From the NCBI GenBank assembly GCA_025451275.1, contig JANWKR010000023.1:1-64000 (forward strand): a DNA stretch of 64,000 bases, written 5' to 3'. The notes beneath the pieces are model-generated. The model saw only the letters and a program-made list of their open reading frames with translations. It had not been told where the DNA came from and did no database searches. Shown piece after piece: positions 29,359-32,815 of the stretch. The position numbers were made by a program, and so were the translations under genes. Source of the stretch: Steroidobacteraceae bacterium (GTDB lineage Bacteria; Pseudomonadota; Gammaproteobacteria; Steroidobacterales; Steroidobacteraceae). How positions within the stretch are numbered: the first letter of the stretch is position 1; every line of letters begins with the position of its first letter.

Positions 29359-30009
29359 CTATCTTACGCTATAGCCGCGGCCCTCGAGGCAGGCGCGGAT
29401 CGCGCGCTGATAGTCAGCACGCTTGGCGCCGGCCTGATCAGGCGGCACGCCGCCGGCGGCCTGGGTCGGATCGTAGCCGGTCTGCGAGTTGGCCCACTTG
29501 TGGCACTCGTACTTGTCGTTTGACTGCTGCTCATCGCTCTGGCCGTTCTGCGGATAGATGAACACGTTGTCATTCGGCGGCGCCTGCGTGCTCGCCACCC
29601 CCGGTTCGGCCATCGGGTCGACCACTTCGTAGCCGTTCTGGTCGGCTCGCCACGCATAGTAGGTATCGTCGGCGTAGTAGTACGGTGCACCGCCGACCCA
29701 CACCGTGGTGTAGTACGGGGGCAGCACCGGCACGAACACACCGACCGGCGCGCCGATGACCACGAAGCCGGGGCCGCGCGGCGCATACCACACCCCGCCC
29801 GAGTACCAGTAGCGCACGCCGCCGCGATACACCGCGTACGGCCGTCCCGGCACCGAGCGCACGACCATGCCGCGCTCGGAGTAATAGTGATCGTGGCCGT
29901 AGCGGCCGTCGAAATGCCCCGGTCCCGGCCCGTGATGCGGCTCCTGCGCCACGGCAGCCGTGCCGCACAGCATCAGCGCCGCCAGCGCGGCGCGACCCAC
30001 TCGCCTCAT
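29359..30009 (-). CDS. DUF6515-type secreted Tyr-rich protein
   Basis: Exported protein of unknown function, 216 residues. It has a signal peptide (cleavage near AVAQEP), a His/Gly/Tyr-rich segment, then a beta-rich DUF6515-like part (YAVYRGGVRYWYSGGVWY; VFVPVLPPYYTTVWV). The last 75 residues (YECHKWANSQTGYDP ... RAIRACLEGRGYSVR) are clearly paralogous to the tail of the gene just upstream. ATG 30009 is preferred over 30015 because GAGAGG is 7 nt upstream of it. There is an 11-nt gap after the lipoprotein gene. Confidence 0.8.
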   Translation of the reverse strand: MRRVGRAALAALMLCGTAAVAQEPHHGPGPGHFDGRYGHDHYYSERGMVVRSVPGRPYAVYRGGVRYWYSGGVWYAPRGPGFVVIGAPVGVFVPVLPPYYTTVWVGGAPYYYADDTYYAWRADQNGYEVVDPMAEPGVASTQAPPNDNVFIYPQNGQSDEQQSNDKYECHKWANSQTGYDPTQAAGGVPPDQAGAKRADYQRAIRACLEGRGYSVR

Positions 30010-30020
30010 ATTCATACCTC

Positions 30021-30620
30021 TCACCGTACGCTGTAGCCGCGGCCGTCGAGGCACGCGCTCAGCGCGCGCCGGTAGTCGCCGGCCTTCTGGTCCTGCAACG
30101 CCGCGGCACGCCGGTTCCGCGCCGCGGCAGCCTGCGCGGCCTGGAAATTAGCGGCGTTGGCCTGGGCGTTGGCGGCGTCGCCGGCACTGCCGATGGCGCC
30201 GCCGACCACCGCGCCGGCGAGCGCGCCGCCGGCAGACTGCCAGCGCGGCGCGATGGCCGCGCCGATGATGGCGCCGGCGACGGCGCCGATGGCGGTGTTG
30301 GTTCCGGGCGGCGGCCCGGCTGACACGACGCGCATGCGGTCGTGTGGCGGCACGCCGGGCGCGCTCGGATCAAACCCGGTCTGCTGCGTGGCCCATACGC
30401 TGCACTCGTAGTGATCGCGGTCCTGCTGCTCCGGCGGCTGGTTGTGCAGCGGGTAGGCGTAGACGTCGGTGTTGGGCGGCGGCGCCTGCACCGTCGGCGG
30501 CGGCGGTGGCGGCGGGCGTGGCGGAGGGGCTGCGACGCACGCGGCCAGCAGGCCCGCGGCGGCTACGACGGCCGCCCCGCGGAGCGCGCCATGAACGATC
30601 ATTAAGGTTCGGTTCAGCAT
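30021..30620 (-). CDS. Glycine-zipper envelope lipoprotein
   Basis: Probable outer-membrane lipoprotein of 199 residues. It has a lipobox LLAAC, a polyproline stretch, then a conserved YECSVWATQQTGFDP segment. A glycine-zipper region of two membrane-like helices follows (AIGAVAGAIIGAAIAP; GGALAGAVVGGAIGSAG), then an Ala/Asn/Gln-rich helix and the tail RALSACLDGRGYSVR shared with the next gene. It resembles YMGG/glycine-zipper stress lipoproteins. ATG 30620 is chosen for GGGA 6 nt upstream; ATG 30632 is possible. It is preceded by a sigma-E-like promoter, so an envelope-stress role is suggested. Confidence 0.8.
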   Translation of the reverse strand: MLNRTLMIVHGALRGAAVVAAAGLLAACVAAPPPRPPPPPPPTVQAPPPNTDVYAYPLHNQPPEQQDRDHYECSVWATQQTGFDPSAPGVPPHDRMRVVSAGPPPGTNTAIGAVAGAIIGAAIAPRWQSAGGALAGAVVGGAIGSAGDAANAQANAANFQAAQAAAARNRRAAALQDQKAGDYRRALSACLDGRGYSVR

Positions 30621-30712
30621 CGGGAATCCCATGGTTGGAGCGCAGTACCGCTACTTCGCAGAACGCTGCTTGCGGGCGCGAGGTTGACAGTTCAAGGCGT
30701 TCTCCGCCCCGG

Positions 30713-30807: not shown

Positions 30808-31581
30808 CTAGCCTGCTCCGGGCCGTCGCGCAGCGAGCAGCGCGGCGACGCGCTCCAGGTCCGCGGGCGTGTTCACGTCCGGACCGGGCTGTTCCTGCGC
30901 GTCGGCCACGCAGATCACTAGGCCGTGCTCGAGGGCGCGCAGCTGCTCGAGTTTCTCGCGTACTTCGAGCGCACCGGCAGGCAGGCCCGCCAGGCGCAGC
31001 AGCGCTCCCACGCGATAGGCGTAGAGACCGATGTGGCGCCGAGCCCCGCCGCAATCGAGCTGACTCGCCAGCCCCTGCGCGGCGCCGTCGCGATTCCAGG
31101 GGATCGGCGCGCGGCTGAAGTACAACGCCAGGCCGGCGGCGTCGGTCACCACCTTTACGACGTTCGGATCCATGAGGTCGGCGAGCGAGGTGAGCGGTGC
31201 GGCGAGCGTGCCGATATGCGCACGCGGCTGCCCGGCCAGCAGCGCCGCCACCTGGCCGATGAGCGCGGCGGGCATGAGCGGCTCATCGCCCTGAACGTTG
31301 ACCACGATGTCCTCGGCGCCCCAGCCGCGCTGCGTGGCGACTTCGGCGATGCGGTCGGTGCCCGAGACGTGGCGCGGCGAGGTAAGCAGTGCGGTGGCGC
31401 CGAAACTCGAGGCGGCCCGCAGGATGCGCTCATCGTCGGTGGCGATGAGCACCTCGGGTGCGCCCGCGGCGCACGCGCTCTCATATACCCACTGCACCAG
31501 CGGCTTGCCGGCAAGCGGCAGGAGCGCCTTGCCCGGCAGGCGGGTCGAGCCGTAGCGCGCCGGAATGACTACCCGGAACAG
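30808..31581 (-). CDS. kdsB: CMP-KDO synthetase KdsB, apparent CTG start
   Basis: Activates KDO with CTP for lipopolysaccharide core synthesis (cytoplasm). The product is 257 residues. The nucleotide-binding N-terminus FRVVIPARYGSTRLPGK is followed by VQWVYE, NVQGDEPLMPAALI, YFSRAPIPWNRD, HIGLYAYR and GPDVNTPADLERV. No ATG, GTG or TTG lies between the in-frame TGA at 31593-31591 and the FRVVIPAR motif. CTG 31581 gives (M)FRVVIPAR and has GAGGT 6 nt upstream. The first ordinary start (GTG 31497) would remove the essential P-loop-like motif. The gene is in the same frame as, and 9 nt after, the trm112-like gene. Confidence 0.92.
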   Translation of the reverse strand: MFRVVIPARYGSTRLPGKALLPLAGKPLVQWVYESACAAGAPEVLIATDDERILRAASSFGATALLTSPRHVSGTDRIAEVATQRGWGAEDIVVNVQGDEPLMPAALIGQVAALLAGQPRAHIGTLAAPLTSLADLMDPNVVKVVTDAAGLALYFSRAPIPWNRDGAAQGLASQLDCGGARRHIGLYAYRVGALLRLAGLPAGALEVREKLEQLRALEHGLVICVADAQEQPGPDVNTPADLERVAALLAARRPGAG

Positions 31582-31593
31582 TCGCAGACCTCA
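31581..31593 (-). promoter_or_regulatory. Stop/RBS/CTG junction fixing the kdsB start
   Basis: On the minus strand the sequence reads TGAGGTCTGCGACTG (31593-31579). The stop TGA of the upstream gene shares bases with a GAGGT Shine-Dalgarno, then six bases and CTG (31581-31579). An upstream in-frame CTG (31587) sits too close to the SD. Confidence 0.6.
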
Positions 31594-31779
31594 GCGCTCG
31601 AGCAGCGCGTCGTCGGCGGCCAGCTGCCGCGCTTCCTCCTCGAGCATCACCGGCACCGAGTCGCGGATCGGATAGGCGAGGCGGTCGAGGCGGCACACCA
31701 GTAGCTGTGCATCGCGCTTGAACAGCAGCGGCCCCTTGCACACGGGGCAGGCGAGGATCTCGAGCAGGCGCGGGTCCAT
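31591..31779 (-). CDS. Trm112-family zinc-ribbon protein (YcaR-like)
   Basis: Small protein of 62 residues with the Trm112 pattern: [18 protein letters not shown], then [21 protein letters not shown]. Such proteins (YcaR in E. coli) lie between lpxK and kdsB in many gammaproteobacteria; the exact role is unclear. ATG 31779 is preferred over upstream codons for a GGAGGT site 5 nt before it. There is a 10-nt gap after lpxK. Confidence 0.92.
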
Positions 31780-31789
31780 CTGACCTCCG

Positions 31790-32815
31790 TCAGGCGTTGC
31801 GATCACGGATGCGTCTCAGCACGCGCTCGAGCAGCACCGCGGCATCGGCGGCGCCGAGCTGCGCCGCGACCGGTACGTACCAGAGCCGCGCATCGGCAAA
31901 GCTGGCGCATTTTACGGCATCCTTCTCCGTCATGAGCACCGGCCGCGGATCGCCGAAATCGAGTTCCCGCGCGCTCAGAGGATGATGGTCCGGAAAGGGA
32001 TGCTCCTCGAGCTCGAGTCCCTGGGCGCGCAGCATGGCAAAGAAGCGCTGCGGATTGCCGATCCCGGCGACCGCGTGCACGCGCTGCCCGCGGAAGGCCG
32101 GCAGCGGGCGCGGGGCAGCAGCGGCGTCGAGGCGCACGGCCTCGCCCGCCACCAGACTCATGGTGAGCGGACCCGGCCCGGGCGGCGGGCGCGCCAGCGA
32201 GCCGTGCGTGGCGGCCCCGTTCGTGACCACGACATCGGCGCGCGCCAGGGCCGCGAGCGGCTCGCGCAGGGGGCCCGCCGGCAGCAGCCGGCCGTTGCCG
32301 AAGCCGCGCGCTCCGTCGACCACCACGATCTCGCAGGCGCGCCCGAGACGCAGGTGCTGCAGCCCGTCGTCGGCCAGGATCACCTGCACGCCGCGCGCGG
32401 TGAGCGCCCGCGCGCCCGCCACGCGGTCGGCGGCGACGAAGGTCGGACAGGCGCTGTGGCGCGCCAGCAGCAGCGGCTCGTCGCCGACCTCGCGCCAGTC
32501 GCTCCCCACCAGCACCTCGCGCGGCGCGCGCTCGCGCCGCCCGTAGCCGCGCGACAGGATCCCCACCCTGAGCCCGCGACCGACCAGCTCGCGCGCCAGC
32601 CAGATGGTCAGCGGCGTCTTGCCGGTGCCGCCCACCGTGAGATTGCCGATCACTACCACCGGGCAGCCGGCGCGCTCGGTGACGATGAGCCCCGAGCCGT
32701 ACGCCGCGCGCCGCAGCCGCACCACGGCCCCGTACAGCCACGCCAGCGGCTGCAGGAGCGACGCCCGGTCGGGCTCGCGATACCACAGGTCGGTGAGCCG
32801 CTGTTGCGCGCCCAT
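31790..32815 (-). CDS. lpxK: Tetraacyldisaccharide 4'-kinase LpxK
   Basis: Adds the 4'-phosphate to the lipid A precursor at the inner membrane. The product is 341 residues. The N-terminal hydrophobic/amphipathic helix ([17 protein letters not shown]) precedes Walker A VGGTGKTP in [30 protein letters not shown] (Walker B) and the late PDHHPLS and [10 protein letters not shown] motifs are all present. It is downstream of msbA with a 10-nt gap. Confidence 0.97.

Follow-up and report, generated by a model that had tools for sequence, protein, structure and literature searches.

CUG is a rare and weak start codon in bacteria. It is reported to account for 0.024% of bacterial starts and to yield 0.86% of the output of AUG (PMC11497404). 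Among 5,080 ancestral GUG starts, a single switch from GUG to CUG was described, and stronger Shine-Dalgarno signals were reported with the weak starts GUG and UUG (PMC5622118). The closest parallel to the case presented here is the rep gene of IncFIB plasmids, in which, as at kdsB, a CTG stands behind a good ribosome-binding site (PMC11983097). The literature matches listed for the kdsB start codon, for CTG or CUG starts and for start-codon selection contained, in their titles and abstract openings, no report of a CTG-started kdsB. A further article treats other non-ATG starts, with neither CTG nor CUG in the passages considered (PMC11445065).

Here we describe a kdsB gene for which a CTG start is proposed. 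It lies in a stretch of 64,000 nucleotides (hereafter the window) from a draft genome of a Steroidobacteraceae bacterium (2.49 Mb in 149 contigs, 81% complete, 2% contaminated). The features of the locus are as follows.

30808..31581, minus strand: kdsB, CMP-Kdo synthetase (3-deoxy-manno-octulosonate cytidylyltransferase); read from the CTG, 257 codons plus stop
31579..31581, minus strand: CTG, the proposed kdsB start codon, aligned with ordinary starts in 37 of 52 loci of the same genus
31588..31592, minus strand: GAGGT, Shine-Dalgarno-like; overlaps the trm112 stop and is separated by 6 nt from the CTG at 31581
31585..31587, minus strand: second in-frame CTG, a rival start two codons upstream; it abuts GAGGT, a poor spacing
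31495..31497, minus strand: GTG, the first ordinary start in the kdsB frame, giving a 229-aa product without the first 28 residues
31591..31779, minus strand: trm112/ycaR-like gene, from ATG 31779 to TGA 31593-31591 (PF03966)
31790..32815, minus strand: lpxK, upstream neighbour of kdsB and trm112 (PF02606, 365.2 bits)

The kdsB frame extends from stop to stop over positions 30808-31590 and begins GLRLFRVVIPARYGSTRLPGK. From the trm112 stop onwards, the minus-strand codons are TGA (31593), GGT, CTG (31587), CGA, CTG (31581), TTC, CGG, GTA, GTC, ATT and CCG, the conserved N-terminus of KdsB opening with the TTC. A sequence-only reading of this DNA had noted a CTG at 31581, spaced 6 nt from GAGGT, as the apparent kdsB start, with no ordinary start between the preceding stop and the conserved N-terminus. 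Both observations hold: no ATG, GTG or TTG occurs in frame from the TGA at 31593-31591 to the GTG at 31497 (the 29th codon if the CTG is the first), and reading the minus strand confirmed that the CTG at 31581-31579 follows GAGGT after 6 nt. Two details needed amendment. The gene lies on the minus strand, so that the codon reads from 31581 down to 31579, and the frame contains two CTG codons (31587 and 31581); comparison with relatives favours the one at 31581. A list of open reading frames beginning with ATG, GTG or TTG holds only the 229-aa frame 30808-31497 for kdsB.

The identities proposed earlier for the trm112-like and kdsB genes were borne out by Pfam and NCBIfam profiles. The longest trm112 frame, read from GTG 31806, scored 61.1 bits against PF03966 (cut-off 22). 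Within its start region (31777-31806, minus strand), the ATG at 31779 lies directly behind GGAGGT and is a likelier start than GTG 31806. An ABC transporter gene beyond lpxK is taken for msbA, judged by its place. Downstream of kdsB, two adjacent minus-strand reading frames (29359-30054 and 30021-30632) have near-identical ends, RACLEGRGYSVR and SACLDGRGYSVR, and from these sequences look like tandem paralogues.

Read from the CTG, the KdsB protein matched TIGR00466 with 226 bits (cut-off 155.2) over profile positions 3-241 of 241, which places it in this equivalog family, and PF02348 with 160.1 bits from profile position 2. Searches against the PDB returned KdsB chains (best E 6e-77), and the best-matching chains align from residue 2. 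When the protein was read from GTG 31497, the matches began at position 31 of TIGR00466 and position 28 of PF02348. As stated in the sequence-only reading, a start at this GTG would remove conserved residues: the first 28 codons would be lost, including IPARYGSTRLPGK, which we take to be part of the nucleotide-binding site.

Ordinary start codons yield the 229-aa frame only. This is what would be expected if the kdsB start had been lost and the gene were silent, decaying or expressed just as a truncated protein from GTG 31497. A single kdsB match was found in the assembly, and a second copy could sit in the missing part of the genome. Against such a loss, the frame is intact to its end and carries no change at 86 columns that are invariant in 30 other full-length loci, all but one of them from the same genus (L024 is from another); the other loci carry 0 to 4 changes each at these columns. 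Codon-position identity between the window's kdsB and the relative L002 was 0.82/0.86/0.61, and third positions were the least alike in all five relatives compared. Frame, invariant columns and codon positions thus gave no sign of decay, and the frame from GTG 31497 would lack roughly 30 positions at the start of the TIGR00466 profile. We regard a silent or truncated kdsB as very unlikely.

To place the start among homologues, kdsB was searched in 119 genomes including that of the window. It was found in 111, that is, in 110 of 118 relatives; in the genus, 54 of 58 genomes (the window's included) gave a match. Three of the 110 were excluded: G013 and G045, with matches covering the 3' part only, and G079, with a weak match (E 2e-6). 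The start region was read in 189 loci, comprising the window, 108 loci of relatives (30 + 78) and 80 named loci, the best 80 of 577. Removal of four duplicates left 185 distinct loci, window included. The nearest relative shows 76% protein identity to the window in KdsB. One draft genome (G017, 4% contamination) holds two kdsB genes, on contigs C459 and C314, with 74% and 73% identity to that of the window, possibly from two organisms.

All 52 other loci of the genus (51 genomes) have an ordinary start. In 37 of them it falls exactly at the codon occupied by the CTG in the window (GTG in 26, TTG in 6, ATG in 5), and in the remaining 15 it lies one to nine codons upstream. Across the 184 other distinct loci, 183 have an ordinary in-frame start, and the nearest one ranges from 28 codons upstream to one codon downstream of the CTG position; it is exactly at this position in 52, 9 to 12 codons before it in five and 28 codons before it in one (L082). 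A start in another frame, the pattern in relatives that would have spoken against the CTG, was not seen in the genus, where all 52 loci start in frame. The choice of CTG 31581 is well supported by the starts of 37 of 52 genus loci, by the well-spaced Shine-Dalgarno-like site and by the conserved residues that a start at GTG 31497 would remove. Conservation of the CTG in relatives, proposed earlier as a check, was not found: the position is kept (37 of 52), the CTG itself is not. It occurs in none of the 52 genus loci and is private to the window's genome. Judged from these alignments, the CTG position is most likely the ancestral kdsB start position, and the ordinary start appears to have been lost in the window's genome, most simply by a change from GTG to CTG.

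The second CTG, at 31587, would give a product beginning M-R-L-FRVV. It is in frame two codons upstream, within the range of the 15 relatives that start one to nine codons upstream of the CTG position. It directly abuts GAGGT with zero spacing, and the start codon of 37 of 52 relatives coincides with 31581; initiation at 31587 is judged very unlikely.

The sequence-only reading had also raised readthrough of the trm112 TGA, by which Trm112 and KdsB would be made as one fused protein. The two genes do share a frame, and the codons that separate the trm112 stop from the CTG encode just GLR. This arrangement is found no more often than by chance: among the loci of the genus, family and order with an adjacent trm112 (n = 65, window included), 25 share the frame, against 21 and 19 in the other two. 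A simple motif detected a neighbouring trm112 in 119 of the 185 loci, and in 38 of these 119 the frame is the same. Genus relatives, moreover, carry an ordinary start of kdsB's own. On these frame counts and relatives' starts, readthrough was judged extremely improbable.

The duplex predicted between the Shine-Dalgarno-like site and the 16S tail has an energy of -6.3 kcal/mol and ranks 9th of 66 loci, window included; 67 loci were considered and L030, which starts nine codons upstream, was dropped. By this sequence-based ranking the site is good but not exceptional, and is no proof of compensation for the CTG. Folding of the start region (61 nt) gave a z-score of +1.5, slightly weaker than shuffled sequence, and the values for three relatives (+1.1, -0.2 and +0.5) neither contradict nor sharpen this result; no distinctive RNA fold was found at the kdsB start within these 61 nt and these comparisons. 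The gap between the trm112 stop and the CTG at 31581 is 9 nt. In tested gene pairs, reinitiation is reported to drop steeply with distance and to be nearly gone at about 20 nt (PMC10666635). Given the 9-nt gap, some translational coupling between trm112 and kdsB is possible. Three features used to recognise bacterial CUG starts are found at kdsB: the lack of an ordinary start, a CTG at the position where homologues start, and a usual Shine-Dalgarno spacing.

To ask whether starts are missing elsewhere, we surveyed 263 open reading frames (32 from the window and 231 from stretches of ten relatives), all of which had three or more homologues sharing 40% identity or higher. A frame was flagged if, in at least 80% of its homologues, an ordinary start preceded the frame's own first ordinary start by eight residues or more; the rule is blind to shifts of under eight residues and, for this genome, covers the window's reading frames only. 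Two of the 263 were flagged: the window's kdsB, with three homologues, and one frame of G010 (L199). The latter we read as a false alarm, since an ATG at index 22 fits its start. A looser version of the survey flagged dozens of frames, open frames running into upstream genes, and was discarded. Within the window, none of the 32 conserved frames other than kdsB was flagged. Of 12 tRNAs recovered from the assembly, at 81% completeness, none was recognised as an initiator tRNA. The sole tRNA with a CAT anticodon opens with a G-C pair and lacks a run of G-C pairs in its anticodon stem, and by these marks we take it to be an elongator.

The main rival explanation is that the organism, like its relatives, has an ordinary start and that the CTG reflects one wrong base in the draft consensus. 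Because the CTG is private to one genome (0 of 52 genus loci), such a one-base error has to be weighed, and no close species vouches for the codon because KdsB identity to the nearest relative reaches just 76%. The fragmented and incomplete state of the assembly, with its 149 contigs, 81% completeness and 2% contamination, adds to this concern, and so does the frequency of similar cases: two of the 184 other kdsB loci (L170 and L082) also have no plausible ordinary start, compared with about 0.04 expected at a CUG rate of 0.024%. This excess over the published CUG share may stem from draft errors or from starts that annotation misses, and cuts both ways. Against an error, kdsB alone was flagged among the 32 conserved reading frames of the window, and none of the 86 invariant columns is altered. 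By rough arithmetic, if draft errors occurred at 1e-5 per base, the loss of a start by error would be about tenfold rarer than a true CUG; at 1e-4 the two would be about equal, and an error giving CTG specifically would be rarer still. Taken together, a consensus error is a realistic possibility, though an unlikely one.

In L170, from a genome of the same family and another genus (G059), the kdsB frame contains no ATG, GTG or TTG ahead of the N-terminus as far back as the previous stop. At the place where one would look for an ATG, four codons upstream and preceded by GGAG, stands an ATC; this is possibly a second non-canonical start, or a draft error. In L082, from an uncultured Luminiphilus (CALKNZ010000084.1), the codon aligned with the window's CTG is likewise CTG; it is preceded by AAAGGGAG and lies in a region that overlaps the apparent end of lpxK. 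The only ordinary in-frame start of L082 is a TTG 28 codons upstream, within this apparent lpxK end, and is judged implausible as the kdsB start.

We consider it probable that the window's kdsB uses a real, isolated and weak CUG start. A first-base change, most simply from GTG to CTG, would have removed the ordinary start. The CUG at 31581 would be decoded by the initiator fMet-tRNA, with GAGGT 6 nt upstream, overlapping the trm112 stop, positioning the ribosome on it. Ribosomes that end trm112 nine nucleotides upstream may assist by reinitiation. The product, fMet-FRVVIPARYGSTRLPGK, would be an ordinary CMP-Kdo synthetase, and its output is probably lowered. The weakness of CUG counts against this reading, KdsB being an enzyme that we presume to be essential. 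A bolder extension is that the CUG has been selected in this lineage for its low output, so that Kdo activation for lipopolysaccharide is throttled at initiation and perhaps tied to trm112 termination; the CTG of L082 would then be a parallel, independent case, and kdsB would tolerate or even favour very weak starts concealed by gene callers. We regard this extension as improbable.

CUG starts are already known, and kdsB seems to be a single new case in which the relatives use an ordinary start. If real, it would offer a clear instance from nature of a housekeeping gene that runs on a codon reported to give about 1% of AUG output, and would show how start-codon annotation rules can strip the record of a protein of a conserved motif. 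Both the study of start-codon evolution and the design of gene callers could profit from it, while no general rule would change.

Comparison with the IncFIB rep gene brings out both shared and distinct features. Most IncFIB records are said to show a downstream GTG, so that annotation misses the true N-terminus; that GTG lies 14 codons downstream, compared with 28 in kdsB. For rep, N-terminal analysis and mutation support the CTG, and closely related replicons are argued to share it, whereas the CTG of kdsB is a proposed start, private to one draft genome. Low expression suits rep as a replication initiator, while kdsB is a chromosomal biosynthesis gene (PMC11983097). The GUG to CUG switches described in prokaryotes involve the same change from the same kind of ancestral start as proposed for kdsB; they were identified in triplets of close genomes, whereas the kdsB switch is deduced from more distant relatives, the nearest at 76% (PMC5622118). 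Compared with the ordinary KdsB of Gammaproteobacteria (TIGR00466), the protein, its gene neighbourhood and the start position are alike, and the difference lies in the first base of the start codon.
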